Counted from the stretch's first letter, positions 2,363 to 28,991 are shown. The stretch: DNA of 36,611 nt from a virus (IMGVR_UViG_3300025120_000205:1-36611), one strand, 5' to 3'. The notes: a model not told the origin generated them from the sequence alone. A program made the numbers and translations.

Positions 2363-3922
2363 ATGATAGTAAAACAGGTACACCTTGGCGACAGCGGCCA
2401 AGAAAAACTACGGGCTGGAATCAAAAAAATTGCTGGAGCAGTAAAGAGCACGCTCGGTGCCAGGGGTCGAACTGTCCTCATAGAGTCCGAGAACCATGTG
2501 GGCGGAATAACCGTCACCAAGGACGGTGTGACTGTTGCCAAGTCGATCAACCTTTACGACCCTACGGAGAACCTTGCCGTGATGATGATCCGCCAGGCTG
2601 CCGAGAAGACGGCCACCATGGCTGGTGACGGTACCACCACATCGATTGTACTTGCCGAGGCCATCATAGATGCGGCCCAGGAATACATAGACGGATCCAC
2701 AAACGTCACCGAGGTTATCAGGGAGATCAACTCCATAGCCGAGCGTATAGACGCACACCTGAAGAAGAAGAGCAAGAAGGTCAGCGGTAAGCGTCTACGA
2801 GACGTCGCCACCATATCTGCAAACAATGACAGGAAGGTAGGCGAGATGATCGCTGGTGCCTTTGAGGAGGTTGAGATGGTTACGGTAGAGAACAGCATGA
2901 ACTCGGATACCTATGTAGACATCGTCAAGGGTATGCGTATCGAGCGTGGCTACACCTCTAAATACTTCATCACCGACCAGAAGAAGCAGGAGTGTGTGAT
3001 GGAGAACCCATACGTATTGATCACGGACCACGAGATCAGCAACCTCGCCAACATAGAGGAGATACTGAAACCGATAGTGGCTCAGAACAAGTCCCTTCTC
3101 ATCATAGGTGAGCTTAGTCAGAACGTGCTTAACACACTGAATGTAAATGCATTGCAGGGAAAGATAAAGGTCTGCAACATCATACCACCAAACTTTGGGT
3201 ACAGGAAGAAGGAGCTGCTTGAGGATCTTGCGATTGCTCTTGGCGGCACATACTTCTCTGACGACACTGGGGATGACCTGTCTGTTGTTCAGATGGGGGA
3301 CCTTGGTCGTGCTGCGAAGATTGTAGTCCGAAAGGACATGACGGTCATCATGCAGTCCGAGGAGATGGGTGATACCATAACGGATCATGTCGAGGTCCTG
3401 AAGAAGGTTGTATGGGTGACAGAGCAGAGGGAGGAGAGAGACTTCCTTCAGGAGCGAATTGCAAACCTATCTGGCGGAATTGGCGTCATACATGTCGGTG
3501 CGCTTACAGACATCGAGCAGAAGGAGAAGCGTGACCGTATCGACGACGCTGTCTGTGCGGTACAGGCGGCACTGGAGGGCGGCATACTGCCTGGCGGTGG
3601 GATAGCACTACTAAACTGCATCCCTATGGTTGATGACTCAGGCCCTGCATCAAGGATAGTAAGGTCGGCACTTTTTGCACCCTTCAATCAGATACTTGAG
3701 AACGCTGGCCTGGACGGCCTTTCTAAGATGACAGGATTCAAGGAGGACGGTGTTGGATACGACGTGAAGAATGACAGGGTTGGTGACATGATAAAGATGG
3801 GCATCATAGACCCAGCCAATGTGACAAGGAATGCGTTAGAGAACGCAGTATCTGTCGCCACTACGATAATGAGTACGAGTTCAATAATAACAAACGTGAG
3901 AGACAATGGAGGTACTAAATAA
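2363..3922 (+). CDS. groEL: Phage-encoded chaperonin GroEL
   Basis: This 519-residue group I chaperonin forms ring complexes that fold proteins with ATP. Nucleotide-site motifs are intact: TLGARGRT (30-37), TKDGVTVAK (52-60), GDGTTTS (88-94, with D89 matching Asp87 of E. coli), and RIDDAV (392-397, with D395 matching catalytic Asp398). GILPGGG is at 407-413. The apical domain keeps the GYTSKYF pattern (196-202) with the Tyr/Tyr/Phe residues that bind GroES and substrate. It is slightly shorter than bacterial GroEL (about 545) and lacks the Gly-Gly-Met C-terminal tail that lines the cavity. It has its own promoter and overlaps groES by 17 nt. A likely job is folding a phage virion protein or replacing the host chaperonin; the substrate is inference. 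Confidence 0.96.
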   Translation: MIVKQVHLGDSGQEKLRAGIKKIAGAVKSTLGARGRTVLIESENHVGGITVTKDGVTVAKSINLYDPTENLAVMMIRQAAEKTATMAGDGTTTSIVLAEAIIDAAQEYIDGSTNVTEVIREINSIAERIDAHLKKKSKKVSGKRLRDVATISANNDRKVGEMIAGAFEEVEMVTVENSMNSDTYVDIVKGMRIERGYTSKYFITDQKKQECVMENPYVLITDHEISNLANIEEILKPIVAQNKSLLIIGELSQNVLNTLNVNALQGKIKVCNIIPPNFGYRKKELLEDLAIALGGTYFSDDTGDDLSVVQMGDLGRAAKIVVRKDMTVIMQSEEMGDTITDHVEVLKKVVWVTEQREERDFLQERIANLSGGIGVIHVGALTDIEQKEKRDRIDDAVCAVQAALEGGILPGGGIALLNCIPMVDDSGPASRIVRSALFAPFNQILENAGLDGLSKMTGFKEDGVGYDVKNDRVGDMIKMGIIDPANVTRNALENAVSVATTIMSTSSIITNVRDNGGTK

Positions 3923-9263: not shown

Positions 9264-9821
9264 ATGAAGTCTCCATACTGCTTCGTTATAAAGCCTGTCG
9301 ATGGGAGGCGTTATGACAACATAAGAAACTATGACGGAAAGGAGTTTATTATAAGCACCTCGCAGGAGGATCATACCGTGTCAAATAGATTTGCAGAGGT
9401 TTTAGCAAGGCCCACATACTACAATGGCCCTATTAAAAAGGGAGACATTGTTATCGTTCACCATAACGTGTTTAGGTATTACTACGACATGAAGGGGAAT
9501 CAGAAGTCTAGCTGGCACTATGTTATGGACGACGTATTTATCGTCGAGCCGAGTCAGGTATATCTTTACAAAAGAGATGACGTCTGGAACGCACCGTCTC
9601 CATTTTGTTTTGTAAAACCAATAGACTCTGATGATCACATGTTCACTCAGCTTGGAAGCTTAGAACAGCTTTGGGGAGAGTTGGTCTTTAAGAATGAAGA
9701 CATAGACTACGTAAGTCATGGAGACATTATATCATTCACCCCAGACAGCGAGTATGAGTTCAGGATAGGAGACGAGGTTCTTTACAGAATGTATAACAAA
9801 AATATATGTCTAAAAAAATAG
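9264..9821 (+). CDS. Two-domain GroES-like protein
   Basis: This 185-residue protein is an internal duplication. Repeat 1 (1-103) has SPYCFVIKPVD, FIIS then SNRFAEVLARP, IKKGDIVIVHHNVF, and DDVFIVEPSQVYLY; repeat 2 (111-185) has SPFCFVKPID, WGELVF, SHGDIISF and DEVLYRMYNKNICL. Each follows the co-chaperonin order of first strand, mobile-loop region, Gly-x-Val strand, Gly-Asp strand and final Leu/Ile strand. Repeat 1 keeps a candidate mobile loop with FII (28-30); repeat 2 lacks one. It could be a second co-chaperonin or a structural protein that reused the fold. Its occurrence with true groEL-groES is striking. The fold call is by pattern, not by search. Confidence 0.6.
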   Translation: MKSPYCFVIKPVDGRRYDNIRNYDGKEFIISTSQEDHTVSNRFAEVLARPTYYNGPIKKGDIVIVHHNVFRYYYDMKGNQKSSWHYVMDDVFIVEPSQVYLYKRDDVWNAPSPFCFVKPIDSDDHMFTQLGSLEQLWGELVFKNEDIDYVSHGDIISFTPDSEYEFRIGDEVLYRMYNKNICLKK

Positions 9822-20176: not shown

Positions 20177-23100
20177 ATGGAAATAAATAAGACATTCCTG
20201 GCAGGTAAGATGAATAAGGACCTTGACGATAGGTTGCTATCTGGTGGACAGTACTCTGATGCACTTAACATAACTATAGACACGTCTGAGGGTTCGAATG
20301 TCGGATCCATTTCAAACTCTTTGGGGAATACGCTTACGGGAAATATATCTACAATACTGGACAGCTACACACCAGTAATAGGATCTACAAATGCAAAGAC
20401 TATTGGTGCGATTGAGTATGAGCCTCTTAATCTTATATACTGGTTCGTATCTGCAGATGAATATGATGCAATCTTTGAATACAACGAGATAGATAATACA
20501 ACTAAGCAGGTTATCATATCCACAAAGACGGGAGGTAATCCTAGTCAACTAAACCTTAGTCAGGAATATCTAATTACGGGCGTGAATTACATTCCAGGCC
20601 ATAAGGATTCTGGTGCCCTATTGTTTTGGACAGACAACCTGAATCCCCCTAGAAAGATAAACATAGCCAGGTCCAAGGAATACGCTGTAAATGATGCCAG
20701 GATAGATATAGATATAGATGTAATACTAAGGCCACCATTAAAGGCACCTGTTATATACCCAATAACAACAGATGTAGTACAATCAAGCAGCATGGAGGAG
20801 AGGTTTCTTTACTTTTCATACAGGTATAAGTACGTGGATAATGAGTACAGCTCCATGTCCCCGTTTTCTTCCGTTGCATTTAAGCCTGGAGAGTACGAGA
20901 TCGATTACCTAAACGGTAATAATAAGGCGATGGTAAACACTTATAATCAGTGTCGGATTGTTTTCGAGACAGGTAATGAGTATGTGGATGAGATTCAGAT
21001 TTTAGCCTATGACACCAGGAGTCTGAATGTAAAGATTGTAAAGTCAATCAATAAGAACGAGTCGCCAGTAATATCATCAAACAATGTCTCGGATTACACC
21101 TTTGATAATAACAAGATATACGCACCACTTCCTTCTGATCAGGTGACCAGGCTGTTTGACAATGTTCCTTTGCAAGCAAAGGCTCAGGAGATTATAGGTA
21201 ACAGATTAATATACGGTAACTACACTCAATTTAGAGACATAGTTAATAGTGATGGGAATGATATAGATATGAATTTTTCGGTTACATACACATCTAAAGA
21301 TGGTGTACTAAACCAACCAATATCTACATTTAGAAGCGACAGGGATTATGAGGTTGGAATCATATACGGTGACGATTACGGAAGGATGACAACAGCATTG
21401 ATAAGCAACTCAAACTCTACATATATTCCACCAGCTCAGTCTACGAAGGGAAATAGTCTTAGGGTTGATATATCAAACTTTGCCCCCACATGGGCTACAA
21501 ACTATAGGCTTGTAGTGAAGCAGTCTAGTCAGTCTTATTATAACATTTTTCCTATATGGTTCTATTCAGACGCCTCATATAGATATTTTAGAATAAACGA
21601 GTCAGACAGGGATAAGTTTTCTGTGGGAGACTACGTTATATTTAAAACAGATGGGACGGGTCCTACATATTCAAATAAAAAGTATAAGATACTTGAGTTC
21701 GAATTAAAGAGCGATAACTTCATAGGAAACGAGGAAAAGGCAGGTCTTTACTTTAAGATAAAGGTGGACAATGTATCTACATTTAATTCTTCAAACTTCC
21801 CTAACTTCGGTGGGGATGATTTAGGAAGAAGTGACTCAGTGCCAATAGCTGATAAGTTAGTTATATATCTTGATAAGACAATATTTTATGGATCTGGAGA
21901 TCCTAGTGCTATGGTCGCTTCTCTTATGGGTGGTAGTGCTGGCATAACTGGTAACAGGAAAGATCGTAGGTATACCATAGAGATAGATAGCGTTGATCCT
22001 ACTACGTATAGATACACTGACTCTGTGGATCTAAGCTATTGGATTGCTGGAAATATACCTCTGCTTAATGATACAAACATTAGCGTAAGTCAATGGAGTA
22101 GCGATGATGGAGCCTATACTGAGGTAGTTAATTTGTTTACAATAAGCTTTCCATCAACTTTCAATTCTGTAACGCAGACGTATGAGTCTCCATCAGTTTC
22201 TCTTGGAGATCAATGGAAGGTAAATATTAGGGGGAATAATTTTCATTTCCCATACGCGTATCCTGTTTTTACTGCAGATACATATCCAGCTGCAGGCATA
22301 TACAACATCCCCCCTTCGATGTCTCAATTAAATAATATTGCAGATGAAGGGTTTATTAATATTAATGATGTAGGAAGCGGAGGCCCTGTATATGGAGGTA
22401 TGGCATGCGTGAACAGTGGGTATCAGGCTACTTCGGCTAACGGAGAACATGAGGTTGATAGAGTCATAAACGCAGGGGCACAGATAGAAATAACTATAAC
22501 AGCGGACAGTAGAAATACAAATGCATACACAGAGACTCAAGAATGGACATCTCCTTCAAGGTATGAAAATATAGAGGAGTGGTTTATTGAATCAGGTGCC
22601 TACAAGCAATTCATTCAGCATGACTCTAATGGTAACGATGTGGGATCCAATGGGATCTCATTTAGGAGGGCTAGATACGCTGAAAGTACAAATATTGAAA
22701 CTTGCGAACTAACAAGTGGATTTGGAAGTGATGGCTATACATCAGAGCAACCACAGAACAAGAACTTCCCTATCAGGATGATAGTACCTGGGTATGGATT
22801 CGAGTCATTAGAAATTCCAGGAAATACAATCGAGGTTGAATACAAGATAGTTCAGACTGATGTATCTTTAGTTTGCGAGACAGACCCCAAAGAAAATGAT
22901 GTAGAGATATACCACGAGGTAACGGATTCGTATGACATCGACAACGGACTCCATAAGGTGGGTTGGGACTATGCCGACTATACGCATGCCCTCACTGTAT
23001 TTCCGTGGCTTACTTACGTCTCAAACTACACAATACTAGGGCCATTAGACCCTGCGAACCCACAGCCTACAGATAAGCCTCACAACTTTTCTATAGGACA

Positions 23101-24334
23101 GCAGGTATATAACGTATCCAGTGTGGCTATAAGTCCAGCCATACCAAATGAAAACCCAGACACGGGTCAGCCGTACTATATAGTCTTGGCGGTACCTAAC
23201 CAGTACTGCATAGTTGTAAACAAGACATGGGTTGCCCCAGGGCCAAGCGAGGCAGGTATAATATACCACCAGTTATGGGAGCAAAATCAGACCACTACAA
23301 ATCAGGGTGTCTCTATAGAGATAAACCAGACAACTTCAAAGAATAGTCAGTTCAATGCATTTGCATTTGGTAATGGCGTCGAGTCTTACAGGATAAAGGA
23401 TGACTTCAATGCCCCAGAGATGAAGTTCAGCCCAAGGATAACTAGCATTATAGAGGACTACGAGAACGAACGTAAGGAGGCATCACTCACCTATAGCGGT
23501 GTATATAGAGGGGACACCTCTATAAATAGGCTTAATGAGTTTAACCTATCGATTGCTAACTTTAGGGATCTTGACAGAGAGTTCGGATCCATTGAAAAGC
23601 TATACGCAAGGGATACAGATGTGTTTGTATTGCATCAGGACAAGATTAATAAGGTTCTATACGGAAAGAACGTGCTATATGATGCTGTCGGAGGTGGGCA
23701 GATTGCATCGATACCTGAGGTTCTTGGTAACGAGATACCTTTCCCTGTGGAGTATGGAATTAGTAATAATCCAGAAAGCTTTGCCACCAATGCAGGGTCA
23801 ATGTTTTTTACAGACTCCAGGAGGGGTGCCGCTATAGGGATAGAGAACGGACAAGTGTCAGAGATTTCATCTCTTGGGATGACCGATTACTTTAGAGACG
23901 AATTTAAAGACAACCCAAACACGCAAAAAATTGGAGCCTATGATCCGTACTCTAATAGGTATACTATTTCAACAGAAAACACACGGACTGTTAATCCATG
24001 TAGACTATCTCTAAGTCGAAACCGTTACAATGTAAGGAGTAATTCAGGTGGACTGTCTTACCTTATGTTTTCTATATCAACATCTCAAACATGGACGATT
24101 AGTCTTGTGGATACTGGATATGGAACGTCATGGGTCTCTCCATCTTCAGTTTCTGGATATGGGGCGATAATTATTAATGCAAATGTTGCAAATAACTTCA
24201 CAAGTTCGATTAGAAGTGTTAACTTTGTTGTTACGTATTGCACAAATCAAACGCAGACATTCACACTTACACAGGCTGTAGCTAGTCCTATATCTGTAGA
24301 TGTAATTGTAAGAAACAAAATAGACCAAGGATAA
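20177..24334 (+). CDS. Large tail nozzle/stalk protein with C-terminal BACON-like domain
   Basis: This 1385-residue protein opens MEINKTFLAGKMNKDLDDRL, then a GGQYSDALNITIDTSEGSNV pattern (23-42) that I recall from the conserved large tail protein of crAss-like and related podophages, analogous in place to the T7 nozzle gp12. The body is beta-rich. Near 1150-1265 lies the conserved FYTERTCY-free segment VFVLHQDKINKVLYG and FFTDSRRGAAIGIENGQVSE, typical of a beta-propeller closing part. Residues about 1272-1372 look like a BACON domain: LSLSRN, SNSGGLSYLMF, SQTWTISLVD, then SIRSVNFVVTYC and TFTLTQA. BACON domains are linked to glycan or mucin binding. Its stop overlaps the fibre ATG by one base. 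Confidence 0.8.
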   Translation: MEINKTFLAGKMNKDLDDRLLSGGQYSDALNITIDTSEGSNVGSISNSLGNTLTGNISTILDSYTPVIGSTNAKTIGAIEYEPLNLIYWFVSADEYDAIFEYNEIDNTTKQVIISTKTGGNPSQLNLSQEYLITGVNYIPGHKDSGALLFWTDNLNPPRKINIARSKEYAVNDARIDIDIDVILRPPLKAPVIYPITTDVVQSSSMEERFLYFSYRYKYVDNEYSSMSPFSSVAFKPGEYEIDYLNGNNKAMVNTYNQCRIVFETGNEYVDEIQILAYDTRSLNVKIVKSINKNESPVISSNNVSDYTFDNNKIYAPLPSDQVTRLFDNVPLQAKAQEIIGNRLIYGNYTQFRDIVNSDGNDIDMNFSVTYTSKDGVLNQPISTFRSDRDYEVGIIYGDDYGRMTTALISNSNSTYIPPAQSTKGNSLRVDISNFAPTWATNYRLVVKQSSQSYYNIFPIWFYSDASYRYFRINESDRDKFSVGDYVIFKTDGTGPTYSNKKYKILEFELKSDNFIGNEEKAGLYFKIKVDNVSTFNSSNFPNFGGDDLGRSDSVPIADKLVIYLDKTIFYGSGDPSAMVASLMGGSAGITGNRKDRRYTIEIDSVDPTTYRYTDSVDLSYWIAGNIPLLNDTNISVSQWSSDDGAYTEVVNLFTISFPSTFNSVTQTYESPSVSLGDQWKVNIRGNNFHFPYAYPVFTADTYPAAGIYNIPPSMSQLNNIADEGFININDVGSGGPVYGGMACVNSGYQATSANGEHEVDRVINAGAQIEITITADSRNTNAYTETQEWTSPSRYENIEEWFIESGAYKQFIQHDSNGNDVGSNGISFRRARYAESTNIETCELTSGFGSDGYTSEQPQNKNFPIRMIVPGYGFESLEIPGNTIEVEYKIVQTDVSLVCETDPKENDVEIYHEVTDSYDIDNGLHKVGWDYADYTHALTVFPWLTYVSNYTILGPLDPANPQPTDKPHNFSIGQQVYNVSSVAISPAIPNENPDTGQPYYIVLAVPNQYCIVVNKTWVAPGPSEAGIIYHQLWEQNQTTTNQGVSIEINQTTSKNSQFNAFAFGNGVESYRIKDDFNAPEMKFSPRITSIIEDYENERKEASLTYSGVYRGDTSINRLNEFNLSIANFRDLDREFGSIEKLYARDTDVFVLHQDKINKVLYGKNVLYDAVGGGQIASIPEVLGNEIPFPVEYGISNNPESFATNAGSMFFTDSRRGAAIGIENGQVSEISSLGMTDYFRDEFKDNPNTQKIGAYDPYSNRYTISTENTRTVNPCRLSLSRNRYNVRSNSGGLSYLMFSISTSQTWTISLVDTGYGTSWVSPSSVSGYGAIIINANVANNFTSSIRSVNFVVTYCTNQTQTFTLTQAVASPISVDVIVRNKIDQG

Positions 24335-26886
24335 TGAAGGTAAACCAGTCTTATCAATACACAGGAAGTAGCGAGTATACTTTTGATAATGTATTACTCA
24401 GCGGAAACGGCATAGCCTTGTTCGACAAGAGAACAGGTTTTGGGGGGATAGGTTACATTCCATATAATGGATCTACCGTAACATTAAAAGCTGGAGACCC
24501 ATCCACTACATACCTAGACTTTGCACCCAGTCTAAACAACTCCATATACTACCTGGTCACAAACCAGGAGTATTCAGAGTCAGATAGTGCACTTATAAAG
24601 TCATTAGCAACCGCTGTTCCAGTAATATTTAATGGCGTAGATTACGAAGGAGAATTTATTTTTAGCAACCCAAATGACTATGACTTCCTATATCTTATGT
24701 GGGACTATGAAGATAGTATTGGTAGCGGAACAGCTTCATTTAAGGGTGTATCCTCGTCTAGATCTATAGCCTTGAACCTAGGCACAAATATTGGATTAGC
24801 AGGCATGTCTTTCCAAGCGACTGATAAGCCTGTCAGGTTCCAGCTTCAATGGAATAACTCTATAAATTTAGATACGGGGTATGTAGGATTAAATTCATCA
24901 TCTAACTACAATGCACTTATAGCTGCTGGAGTTAGTGACTCTGATATAAAATTACAAAAACCATTAGACGGCCTCGTTAATAATGGAAGTGGAACATTAA
25001 TTATAAATAAATTTTCATCAATAGATGACGCTAGAGTTATAGTCGATTCACCACTGGTAGACACTGTATGGATAGTCAACAGGATCCTTCCTAGTCTAAA
25101 GTCATTCTACATAGACATATCAAATGGAACCACAGCAGATGTATGTACTCAGTGCCCTAATAGGCTATACTATCACGATGGGATAGGAGACCTTCCTACC
25201 ATAAACGACAGGATATACACGGCTTCAGATGGATCTGCGTTGTATGATGGAGGCACTGCATTTCATATGATAGACACGGTCATATGCACGGTCCCTAGTC
25301 CCACAGGTAAGTCATACATAGGTATTGATTCCTTAGGCAATGTAACCTCTATAGATCCCTGCGACTGTCCTGAGTTTGAGGTTCCTTTTATATACCAGGA
25401 GGATGTGGTTATAAGCTCACTTGAAGATGTAAACATTCCAATAAGTACTACTGGAAGCCCAACATCTTTTACTGTAGTAACGACATGCCTTGAGTACCAA
25501 TTATTTGGAGGCAACTCTTCTACATTATTCACATACACAGACTGCGAATCAAACAGTCAAACGATAACAGTATCTGCAAGTAGAAGCGTAATATTATGTG
25601 GAACATCGGCTCCTACGATAGTTCGTGGGGATGGCTTTGTTTCAGCAGGCACGCCATGTATTAGTTCTATTTTTCCTTCAGGGTTGACATTTGATGACGG
25701 GTCTATAGTTGGTACCTCTGTGAAAGAGTTATCATTCTCTTTCACAATCAACGCAACCAATTGCTTTGGTACAAGTGAGAACAGAACAATAAATGTAGAT
25801 GTTGTCTCTCCATCAGACAGGAAGCCATTCCTTATGGATGTGCAGAACTTCACCACAGAATCTTCAAATGCATGCAGTATAACGCCTTCATCAAGTATTG
25901 TATTTACTAGGATGTATTTCGATGGCCCTAATCCTGTCCCGACACTTAGAGACAGGGTGTTTGACTACAGTGATCAGAATGGATTCATACCATTCACTGG
26001 CGGAGACAAGTGGTACTTCGTTGACAACTCTCAGCAGGTTATCAGGATAGATGACAACGGATACGTGTCTGATGTGTATGCATGTCCTGGCACAACTACC
26101 ACTACAACAACAACTACTACAACAACAATACCAGCCGTTGGTAACTATTACACGGCTACACTTTGTGCAGAGCCTACAACTTCTGTAGTTTTATTAGACT
26201 CTACATCTTCAGCCATAGTGGTTGGTAATGTAGTCAAGACTGCTGATGGAAACTGTTGGGAGATAACAGGAACATCATCAGGATCATACCCATATTATTT
26301 AATCGAAAATCCCGTCGTAATATATGCAGACTGTACAGCTTGTACTGGAACAACTACAACCACAACAACTACAACAACTACTACAGCACCAGTCATCAGT
26401 GCCTTCAGTATGGATCCAAGTGCCCAAACATCAGATTTTAATGCGTGTTCACTTACCCCGTCTCTTTCAACATACTACCACAACGGTGGTGGCTCAGTTC
26501 CTACAGTTAACGACTTTATCTACACGGACGCCTTAGGGACGATTCTATTTGACGGAGTATTTAAGTGGTACTACGTGAACGATGGAGGGGCTGCTTATAC
26601 CATACAGGTCTCTAATACGGGTCAGGTTCTGGGTGCAAAGGCATGTGCAGGCGTAACAACCACAACAACCACGACTACGGTCTCAAAGACATACTACACG
26701 TACAAGAACTGCAGCGACGGAATTATTGCAGGAAAGCTATTTTTCTTGGGGCCAAAGGTCCTTGCATCAGACACGGCTGTGAAGGCCTCAGACGGAAACT
26801 GCTACAAGATATTTAATGTAGACGCAGCTGGAGGTCCAGAGCTTGAGGTATTATTTGTCTATAACTCCTGCTACGATTGTCAGTAA
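24334..26886 (+). CDS. Modular tail fibre with poly-threonine linkers
   Basis: This 850-residue protein probably binds receptors. Residues 1-268 form a beta-rich anchor. Module A occurs three times (about 269-345, 512-585, 686-773), each with a strand then PTxNDxIY or PTLRDRVF, an LxDG turn, a WYxV strand and a final G-x-V...AC. Between A1 and A2 is an Ig-like part with SGLTFDDGSIVGTSVKELSF (about 449-468) and TINATNCFG, like putative-Ig (He_PIG) domains. Module B occurs twice (about 600-672, 783-850) with YYT, VKTADGNCWEI or VKASDGNCYKI and a C-x-x-C end. Linkers of 12, 12 and 8 threonines (587-598, 673-684, 775-782) separate the modules. It overlaps the glycosyltransferase-like gene by 10 nt. 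Confidence 0.82.
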   Translation: MKVNQSYQYTGSSEYTFDNVLLSGNGIALFDKRTGFGGIGYIPYNGSTVTLKAGDPSTTYLDFAPSLNNSIYYLVTNQEYSESDSALIKSLATAVPVIFNGVDYEGEFIFSNPNDYDFLYLMWDYEDSIGSGTASFKGVSSSRSIALNLGTNIGLAGMSFQATDKPVRFQLQWNNSINLDTGYVGLNSSSNYNALIAAGVSDSDIKLQKPLDGLVNNGSGTLIINKFSSIDDARVIVDSPLVDTVWIVNRILPSLKSFYIDISNGTTADVCTQCPNRLYYHDGIGDLPTINDRIYTASDGSALYDGGTAFHMIDTVICTVPSPTGKSYIGIDSLGNVTSIDPCDCPEFEVPFIYQEDVVISSLEDVNIPISTTGSPTSFTVVTTCLEYQLFGGNSSTLFTYTDCESNSQTITVSASRSVILCGTSAPTIVRGDGFVSAGTPCISSIFPSGLTFDDGSIVGTSVKELSFSFTINATNCFGTSENRTINVDVVSPSDRKPFLMDVQNFTTESSNACSITPSSSIVFTRMYFDGPNPVPTLRDRVFDYSDQNGFIPFTGGDKWYFVDNSQQVIRIDDNGYVSDVYACPGTTTTTTTTTTTTIPAVGNYYTATLCAEPTTSVVLLDSTSSAIVVGNVVKTADGNCWEITGTSSGSYPYYLIENPVVIYADCTACTGTTTTTTTTTTTTAPVISAFSMDPSAQTSDFNACSLTPSLSTYYHNGGGSVPTVNDFIYTDALGTILFDGVFKWYYVNDGGAAYTIQVSNTGQVLGAKACAGVTTTTTTTTVSKTYYTYKNCSDGIIAGKLFFLGPKVLASDTAVKASDGNCYKIFNVDAAGGPELEVLFVYNSCYDCQ
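26092..26679 (+). repeat. Three ACN microsatellite tracts coding poly-Thr
   Basis: Uninterrupted threonine codons run at 26092-26127 (12), 26350-26385 (12) and 26656-26679 (8). Codons mix ACA, ACT, ACC and ACG, so the peptide run is kept while the DNA is not a perfect triplet repeat, which suggests selection for threonine rather than recent slippage. Confidence 0.85.
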
Positions 26887-27797
26887 AATACAAACTAAGA
26901 TTTATATCGGCACAGCCAGCTACGGACTACTACTCTTGGCAGGTTGAGGTGTACATAAATAACTTTATATCACTAGGCTATAAAGACATAGATGTCGTGT
27001 GTGGATTTCAGAATAGCATACCAGAGTCCTGGGGTAAGCTTGTCTCCAGGTATGGGGATGTGGCTAACTTCTATTTCTACGAGGACACTCTTGGTGATGT
27101 GAAGTACATACCAGCGATACAGGCACACATACTAAAGAAACATTTCGATGAGAACCCTAGCCGTGACGCATTCTTTTTTCATGACTCAGACTTTATATTC
27201 ACTAAGCACCTGGACTTCAGTCCGTACCTTAACGATGACAACTGGTACTTCTCTGACACCACTAGCTATATAGGTCACGACTATATAATGAGCAAGGGCG
27301 AGGAGGTCTTGGATGCGATGTGCGATATAGTTGGCATATCAAAGGATATAGTAAGAAAGAATCAGAAGAACAGTGGTGGCGCACAGAAGCTTATGAAGAA
27401 CCTAGACTCAGAGTACTGGACTAAGGTGGAGAGCGATGGAATACGACTTTACGATAAGCTTATATCTATGCAGCATGTTAAGAAGGATGGAGATCCCTAC
27501 GGAATACAGGCATGGACATCAAGCATGTGGGCCGAGCTATGGAACGGCTGGCTGGCAGGTCATAATGTGGTGGTGCCTAAAGATTTTGATTTCTGCTGGG
27601 CGACATGCCCGTCAGAGAGATGGGATCAGACGTACTTCTTCCACAACGCAGGCGTTCAGAATAATAGCCAGGGTATGTTTTACAAGGCTCAGTATGCAGA
27701 TCGATTGCCATATAAAGAGGATCTAGAGATATCTGAACACAGGTGCTCCCACAGGTACTACATGGAGATGAAGTCTGTCGATAGCTGTTTGCTTTAA
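26877..27797 (+). CDS. Glycosyltransferase-like protein with TTG start
   Basis: This 306-residue protein starts at TTG 26877, the only plausible initiator before the conserved-looking VKYKLRFISAQPATDYYSWQ; the frame opens only 12 nt upstream and no ATG occurs until far inside. It overlaps the fibre gene by 10 nt, so translation is probably coupled. Features resemble GT-A glycosyltransferases: an opening strand, YIPAIQAHILKKHF, then FFFHDSDFIF with a DxD-type metal site Asp103-x-Asp105, and WYFSDTTSYIGHDY. The middle is Trp-rich (WTSSMWAELWNGW). It probably transfers a sugar, perhaps to the threonine-rich fibre encoded just upstream. Reaction and substrate are inference; family assignment is by pattern. 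Confidence 0.65.
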   Translation: MSVKYKLRFISAQPATDYYSWQVEVYINNFISLGYKDIDVVCGFQNSIPESWGKLVSRYGDVANFYFYEDTLGDVKYIPAIQAHILKKHFDENPSRDAFFFHDSDFIFTKHLDFSPYLNDDNWYFSDTTSYIGHDYIMSKGEEVLDAMCDIVGISKDIVRKNQKNSGGAQKLMKNLDSEYWTKVESDGIRLYDKLISMQHVKKDGDPYGIQAWTSSMWAELWNGWLAGHNVVVPKDFDFCWATCPSERWDQTYFFHNAGVQNNSQGMFYKAQYADRLPYKEDLEISEHRCSHRYYMEMKSVDSCLL

Positions 27798-27815: not shown

Positions 27816-28580
27816 ATGTCTACTATAACCTATTCAATATGGACCAAGGGATGGACGTCCTTCTGGTCTTACGTTCCAGACTGGATGATTGGTCTCAACA
27901 GCAGCTTCTATTCATTCTCAGGAGGCAACCTGTACAAGCACAACACAAACCAAAATAGGAATACATTTTACGGAACTCCTTACAAGTCCACCATCACAAC
28001 GGTATTCAATGACGATCCACTGCAGATGAAGGTATTCAAGACACTATCTCTAGACTCAAACAAGCCATGGAAGGCGATCATAGACACGGAGCTAAACACT
28101 GGCGAGATGGAGTCGAGTTCCTTCGAGGAGAAGGAGGCGGAGTGGTTCTCCTACATAAGAAGGGTTGACGACACCATAGACCTTAAGGCTATATCTACAC
28201 AGGGAATAGGCAACGCAACGTCGATAGACAGCTCAGTTCCTACCGCTGTTGTGGTAACGTTTGGGTTCAGTATAGATTCATCGGTTAGCATAGGAGACGG
28301 CCTGTACAAGATGGGAGTCACGGGTGTGAATCCTCCTATATCTGACGGAACCATGGTCAAGATAGGGGACATAACAGGACTGACATCTACCACGATAACG
28401 GTGGATACAACCACGGGAGTTATACCGCTTACGAGCGACTTCCTGATAGGCCTCAAGAACAGTCAGGCCGAGTCATACGGTGGGAGAGGGTTTTATATGT
28501 CTGTAAAGCTAGAGAACGATGACTTGACTCAGGTTGAAATGTTTTCCGTTAGCAGTTCTCTATTCAAAAGTTTTCCTTAA
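27816..28580 (+). CDS. Conserved tail-associated structural protein
   Basis: This 254-residue protein begins MSTITYSIWTKGWTSFWSYV and PDWMIGLNSSFYSFSGGNLY (21-40), followed by HNTNQNRNTFYG and STITTVFNDDPLQMKVFKTL. I recall this run as conserved in tail genes of Bacteroidota podophages. The middle has EKEAEWFSYIRR, and the C-terminal half is beta-rich, ending SVSSSLFKSFP. A short loop domain (about 145-215) with repeated Asp/Thr/Val strands may be inserted. It probably belongs to the tail hub or the fibre attachment site; no enzymatic motif is seen. Confidence 0.7.
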   Translation: MSTITYSIWTKGWTSFWSYVPDWMIGLNSSFYSFSGGNLYKHNTNQNRNTFYGTPYKSTITTVFNDDPLQMKVFKTLSLDSNKPWKAIIDTELNTGEMESSSFEEKEAEWFSYIRRVDDTIDLKAISTQGIGNATSIDSSVPTAVVVTFGFSIDSSVSIGDGLYKMGVTGVNPPISDGTMVKIGDITGLTSTTITVDTTTGVIPLTSDFLIGLKNSQAESYGGRGFYMSVKLENDDLTQVEMFSVSSSLFKSFP

Positions 28581-28589: not shown

Positions 28590-28991
28590 ATGGAAGTTAG
28601 GCTCTTGACATGCGATGATTACGATACGTTATCGTCGTGGTGGAAGGACTGGAGATGGACAGCTCCACCCAAAGATATGTTGCCAGAGAATGGCCTTGGA
28701 GGGGTGATGATCCATAAGGACGGAAGAGATATATGTGCAGGATTTGTGTACTTTACAAACTCATCAGCCGCATGGCTAGAGTTTGTGGTATCAAACTTTC
28801 ACTACAGGGAGGATGACAGGCAGGACGCCATTAGGTTCCTTATAAATGTCCTGACAGAGATGATTAAGGACAAGGGGTCCTACAAGTATATTTACACATC
28901 CCTAAAGAGCGAGAGCTTGATCGCTAGGTATAGCGAGTGCGGATTCGAGATGGGTAGCACGGGCTGTAAGGAAATGATAAAATTAATATAA
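28590..28991 (+). CDS. GNAT-like N-acetyltransferase
   Basis: This 133-residue protein resembles short GNAT-fold acetyltransferases found among phage tail genes. Typical parts are an N-terminal MEVRLLTCDDYDTLSSWWKD, the strand ICAGFVYFTNSSAAWLEFVV (about 48-67), a helix with RFLINVLTEMIKDKG, and the closing LIARYSECGFEMG. The acetyl-CoA loop (Arg/Gln-x-x-Gly-x-Gly/Ala) is not obvious, with REDDRQDA in that place, so activity is uncertain. A substrate cannot be told; modification of a virion protein or of a host target are both possible. Confidence 0.6.
   Translation: MEVRLLTCDDYDTLSSWWKDWRWTAPPKDMLPENGLGGVMIHKDGRDICAGFVYFTNSSAAWLEFVVSNFHYREDDRQDAIRFLINVLTEMIKDKGSYKYIYTSLKSESLIARYSECGFEMGSTGCKEMIKLI

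Follow-up and report, generated by a model that had tools for sequence, protein, structure and literature searches.

The locus described here raises the question of why a phage fibre that carries pure threonine (Thr) linkers is followed directly by an overlapping gene for a glycosyltransferase-like protein of 306 aa (hereafter the enzyme). The window, that is, the whole stretch of 36,611 nucleotides that was analysed, was a 36.6-kb fragment of a crAss-like phage, deposited as a virus record and matching TerL, portal, and muzzle profiles. The phage was typed as crAss-like by its muzzle protein, which is encoded upstream of the fibre at 20177..24334 (+) and matched PF25731 (3.9e-8) and phrog_14478 (3.2e-206). 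TerL (phrog_6681, 4.2e-176) and portal (phrog_6547, 7.5e-151) were also present, neither profile being named as crAss-specific. GroEL-like (window positions 2363-3922; phrog_5725, 1.4e-130) and GroES-like (9264-9821; phrog_13932, 2.3e-15) genes were found in the same fragment. The next gene after the enzyme encoded a muzzle C-terminal-domain protein (27816..28580, +; PF25729, 7.8e-18). A GNAT-like gene at 28590-28991 was considered as a partner and discarded, since a gene of like length occupied the same place in an enzyme-less relative (L532; only length was compared).

The fibre gene (24334..26886, +) directly followed the muzzle gene and encoded an 850-aa protein matching phrog_21885 and phrog_13374, both of unknown function. 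Its N-terminal body (aa 1-586) was followed by alternating small modules split by pure Thr linkers of 12, 12, and 8 residues, exactly as an earlier sequence-only reading of this DNA had described them. Run 1, the first of the proposed glycan acceptors, covered aa 587-598 (26092..26127, +), run 2 covered aa 673-684 (26350..26385, +), and run 3 covered aa 775-782 (26656..26679, +). The module between runs 1 and 2 (26128..26349, +), which sequence reading and alignment assigned to a Y..A..C / DGNCW / DC..C type, resembled the C-terminal module (26680..26883, +; placed by alignment). The module between runs 2 and 3 (26386..26655, +) was phrog_21885-like (2.7e-20, best stretch aa 687-769) and resembled the segment before run 1. 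By sequence reading, aa 499-584 resembled aa 685-774, and aa 599-672 resembled aa 783-850. In the alignment, longer fibre relatives continued past the C-terminal module with a fourth Thr tract and one more module. The AlphaFold model of the fibre was beta-rich (pLDDT 72, pTM 0.36), and its low-confidence, linker-like stretches coincided with the three Thr runs (pLDDT below 50 at aa 586-602, 673-686, and 778-782). A viral fold search with the fibre returned one clear relative, the rest being weak modular matches. When the protein was shuffled 2000 times, the longest Thr run obtained was 7, compared with three runs of at least 8 in the real fibre. The codons of these runs were mixed (17 ACA, 9 ACT, 4 ACC, and 2 ACG). 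Moreover, when the window was compared with five relatives, 31-32 of the 32 tract Thr residues were kept and 12-22 of their codons differed. Thus, the tracts are under selection at the protein level, and simple triplet slippage is ruled out.

The enzyme gene (26877..27797, +) overlapped the fibre ORF by 10 nt. Its TTG start at 26877, placed in the last codons of the fibre, and its DxD motif (D103-S-D105; 27183..27191, +) had both been read from the DNA earlier and held up: near relatives used GTG or TTG at the same place, and both Asp residues were conserved in 175/175 members of the family alignment. The protein matched phrog_4417, a family annotated as "unknown function", over nearly the whole profile (5.5e-66; residues 8-302 on profile positions 2-292 of 293). 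The Pfam search gave no glycosyltransferase model at E below 0.1, the NCBIfam search gave zero matches, and the PDB sequence search gave only noise. The structure-based search that had been suggested for this protein found a GT-A fold. The AlphaFold (AF2) model was of high confidence (pLDDT 90.3, pTM 0.90), and among its best 50 PDB structure matches nearly all were GT-A, with E down to 2.3e-7; they included the UGGT catalytic domain, LARGE1, LgtC, glycogenin, and the PBCV-1 capsid glycosyltransferase (2p73). GT8/GT24-type enzymes (LgtC, glycogenin, and UGGT) and 2p73 shared with it the predicted fold, the DxD motif, and a conserved C-terminal His...Gly...Lys, but the TM-scores were only about 0.4-0.6 and the identities 7-13%. 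As the Pfam and NCBIfam searches gave no sequence-profile match, the resemblance to CAZy GT8 and GT24 is by fold only. The H256-N-A-G ... K270 segment (27642..27686, +; H256 and G259 each in 173/175, K270 in 174/175) may supply metal and diphosphate ligands as in GT8-type enzymes. Its H-x-x-G...K spacing presumably recalls the GT8 C-terminal motif, which we take only as a lead. No transmembrane segment was seen by eye in the 306-aa sequence.

Considering these features together with the distributions given below, we propose, with a probability of roughly 0.8, that the 306-aa protein is a peptide O-glycosyltransferase of the GT-A type that takes as acceptor a portable poly-Thr tag carried by virion proteins. 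The enzyme would be cytosolic and metal-dependent, with its translation coupled to that of the fibre, and the Thr run would be its acceptor. We infer that during infection it would move sugar from a host nucleotide-sugar donor to the poly-Thr hydroxyls, before or during virion assembly. In the crAss-like phage, the tracts link the modules of the fibre; elsewhere, they are C-terminal tags on the major capsid protein or on neck, tail-tube, or small Ig-like decoration proteins. In each case, the run would be a portable tag by which virion proteins are singled out for glycosylation by the phage's own enzyme. The benefit, if any, might lie in hydrated, protease-resistant, extended linkers or in surface shielding.

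The association of tract and enzyme was investigated with the enzyme as query, which gave 179 loci from viral contigs, genomes, and phage records. A Thr tract was located in the gene just upstream of the enzyme in 108 of them (60%), and the next highest positions reached 6-10%. In Bacillota prophages, the genes at these positions (-6, -5, and +5) encode head, neck, and tail-tube proteins. Every tract gene of this survey (162/162) lay on the strand of the enzyme. The survey understates the association, because its strict tract threshold missed five Bacillota prophages with shorter tags. When shorter runs were accepted, tracts were detected in 35/35 Bacillota genome loci, in 32 of them in the -1 gene. 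In five Bacillota prophages (L112, L113, L120, L129, and L154; L numbers denote our loci), the enzyme ORF was about 355 aa long and carried an extra C-terminal domain of 56 aa. A radical SAM/SPASM gene adjoined the enzyme in two viral loci, L013:6953-7993 (tested) and L064:10957-11988 (by eye).

Neighbouring proteins, namely the N-terminal body of the fibre and the body of the major tail protein, were also used as queries, so that the loci were not picked by the enzyme. Among the complete fibres of the crAss-like family, 56 had both tract and enzyme, 6 had neither, and none was mixed (Fisher 1.6e-8); the enzyme gene followed the fibre in 56/56 of those with poly-Thr. Half of the tract-less members (3/6; L532, L561, and L564) had fibres ending at aa 584-588, the very point at which run 1 would start, and in these enzyme-less relatives the truncated fibre was followed by a gene resembling 27816..28580 in length and position. 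For the major-tail-protein family of Bacillota, the table was built with the enzyme core as query. The C-terminal tag and the enzyme occurred together in 18 loci, the enzyme only in 1, neither in 51, and the tag only in 0 (Fisher 8e-16). The sole enzyme-only locus carried a tag on a separate 83-aa protein. A first version of this table contained many tail proteins with enzyme and no tag; this was an artefact, for the 56-aa domain of the Bacillota enzymes matches a stand-alone small ORF that follows the tail gene in enzyme-less phages. On the tree of the major-tail-protein body, the joint state of tag and enzyme changed at least 5 times (10 by parsimony). Using strongly supported branches only, we obtained 6 independent pairs, of which 5 agreed, 0 disagreed, and 1 was a tie (sign test, p=0.0625); by itself, this phylogenetic test is suggestive, not conclusive. 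In a second tail-protein family, phage R3.3 had the enzyme and tags, and five relatives had neither (for cIP1, as read on the downstream side only). In the major-tail-protein family, tract genes accounted for 45/462 in enzyme-positive loci versus 2/1083 in enzyme-negative loci. As a control, poly-Ala was examined, and the enzyme occurred in 0/36 contigs selected by a poly-Ala pattern, which favours GC-rich contigs. The survey thus bore out the expectation that poly-Thr virion proteins and the enzyme gene would co-occur, and they did so far beyond chance. The opposite case, in which relatives of the gene would be common beside fibres without Thr linkers, was looked for and was not the pattern in phages. 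Together with the GT-A fold, this supports the suggestion of the sequence-only reading that the phage O-glycosylates the linkers of its own fibre, which might stiffen them or disguise the virion.

These data bear on the possibility that the enzyme alters a surface glycan of the host (receptor alteration, serotype conversion, or superinfection exclusion) and that its Thr-rich virion neighbours merely reflect a habit of gene order. It is general knowledge that O-antigen or wall polymers are frequent targets of phage glycosyltransferases, and the enzyme gene behaves as a small mobile cassette, both of which would suit such a role. The joint coming and going of tag and enzyme in two unrelated protein families speaks against it, as do the tags on virion genes 5-6 genes distant, the apparent lack of a transmembrane segment, and the cellular relatives, which reside in RiPP peptide clusters and not in polysaccharide loci. 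We consider this explanation very improbable. The cellular relatives belonged to Bacteroidota (Chitinophaga, Pedobacter, Sphingobacterium, and kin), where the enzyme domain was mostly contained in a protein of 450-590 aa, and a second glycosyltransferase domain was recognised in 2 of the 5 longer relatives tested. They adjoined LanC-like, radical-SAM, and peptide-exporter genes together with GG-leader peptides in RiPP clusters (RiPP-linked loci were L105, L106, L110, L128, L144, L163, and L168). This setting points to a peptide, not a polysaccharide, as the class of acceptor. A few of the GG-leader peptides carried poly-Thr; one of them (L128) had a pinensin-type leader and, close to its C-terminus, 13 Thr in a row. 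A pure Thr run was found in only a minority of the RiPP-linked relatives. The RiPP peptides beside the Bacteroidota relatives are possibly glycosylated.

The proposal that the Thr run itself is the tag was further examined in isolated phages. All of those checked that had the enzyme (14/14) carried poly-Thr tags on head, tail-tube, or fibre proteins, which were mostly unrelated. Major head, head-protease, neck, and tail-tube proteins had the Thr run at their C-terminus; fibres had it internally, and it was also present in small Ig-like proteins. Most of the isolated carriers were long-tailed Bacillota phages, in which the tract ended the major head or tail protein. Different proteins of a single phage shared the residues after the run (HHD in 1706, RHD in CHPC971, SHV in R9.1, and SHA in R3.3), and these end residues varied from phage to phage. 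In phage 1706, for example, the head-protease protein and the MTP ended alike, in ...TTTTTTTTTHHD. The same end on unrelated proteins of a phage suggests a cassette that was copied among them. It could be argued that the enzyme glycosylates these virion proteins at sites outside the Thr runs, the runs being spacers that expose such sites. The runs are indeed predicted disordered linkers, and some tagged proteins have Ser, Pro, Lys, or Ala around them, but the Thr run is all that capsid, neck, tail-tube, Ig-like, and fibre proteins and the GG-leader peptide recognisably share, which makes this alternative quite improbable.

Not all poly-Thr proteins were accompanied by the enzyme. When contigs of 25 kb or more were selected solely for poly-Thr, 23/28 were without phrog_4417, and the tract therefore does not require this family. 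At the tail-tube locus L191, the neck protein (L191:8492-8809) ended in ten Thr residues and the enzyme was absent from the 39-kb contig, which is possibly a case of recent enzyme loss. At L305:4240-5067 (-), a poly-Thr protein without phrog_4417 was followed by a GT2 gene (PF00535), and other glycosyltransferases may thus pair with poly-Thr. Conversely, in a viral group comprising L073, L078, L081, L082, L084, L090, L093, L094, and others, the enzyme lay away from any tract. The two longest contigs without a nearby tract, one of 58.6 kb from this group and one of 67 kb (L051), had poly-Thr codon runs elsewhere. The many phages with poly-Thr and no enzyme, and the fact that repeats can aid recombination, would be in line with a third explanation, namely that the runs are unmodified linkers or a recombination-prone repeat at which an unrelated gene cassette was inserted. 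Against this stand the mixed codons and the synonymous turnover with Thr kept, the several separate tagged genes per phage with a common C-terminal cap, and the joint gain and loss of tag and enzyme; we regard it as highly improbable, the least probable of the explanations weighed here. Taking the peptide O-glycosyltransferase reading as a whole, the pairing recurs in unrelated phages, and these probably use Thr runs to mark chosen surface proteins that their own enzyme then coats with sugar.

Glycosylation of virions has precedents. The mycobacteriophages Che8, Corndog, and Myrna are reported to use their own glycosyltransferases to modify capsid and tail-tube subunits at the C-termini (Freeman et al. 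2023, as cited in PMC12363180 and PMC12619734), and the glycan sites reported in these two articles are C-terminal, where Thr tags sit in Bacillota phages. However, Che8 gp108 and gp109 are GT2-like and gp110 is GT25, and the three gave zero matches to the profile of the enzyme family at E 10. In Che8, no Thr run closes the capsid and tail proteins, and the glycosyltransferase genes are far from the structural genes. The outcome proposed here would be of the same kind as mycobacteriophage virion glycosylation; the Che8 enzymes are unrelated by profile, and Che8 lacks the Thr tag. Eukaryotic mucin-type linkers likewise place dense hydroxyl residues, presumed to be acceptors, between folded modules, but the phage runs are nearly pure Thr, are short (about 6-24 residues), and belong to a bacterial virus with one linked enzyme, which is not known to be related to GalNAc-transferases. 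In pinensin-type and GG-leader RiPP clusters, relatives of the enzyme also lie beside precursor peptides, some of them poly-Thr; in contrast to the phages, the enzyme there usually belongs to a longer protein, and its neighbour is not a virion protein but a peptide with predicted secretion. The sequence-only reading had regarded the system as one not described in short-tailed phages. Our literature search, of partial coverage, found no paper on the coupling of poly-Thr and a glycosyltransferase in phages. Two corrections apply: the system extends beyond short-tailed phages and beyond fibres, as the long-tailed Bacillota carriers demonstrate, and virion glycosylation as such was already known in mycobacteriophages.

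Beyond this locus, it appears rather likely that poly-Thr and the enzyme constitute a mobile tagging system, in which about 6-24 Thr residues, placed anywhere on a protein, would be all that one family of peptide O-glycosyltransferases needs, both for recognition and as acceptor. Such a system would operate in phages of at least Bacillota and Bacteroidota and in RiPP clusters of Bacteroidota, and unrelated capsid, tail, fibre, and secreted proteins would become glycoproteins by gaining the tag. The proposal gives a testable function to phrog_4417, which was annotated as hypothetical in nearly all records seen, and would account for the recurring C-terminal poly-Thr on head and tail proteins. 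It also predicts which virion proteins are glycoproteins in many phages. The proposal also ties the modification of phage virions to the modification of RiPP peptides. Should the Thr run be a sufficient acceptor by itself, it would be a simple genetic tag for bacterial O-glycosylation.
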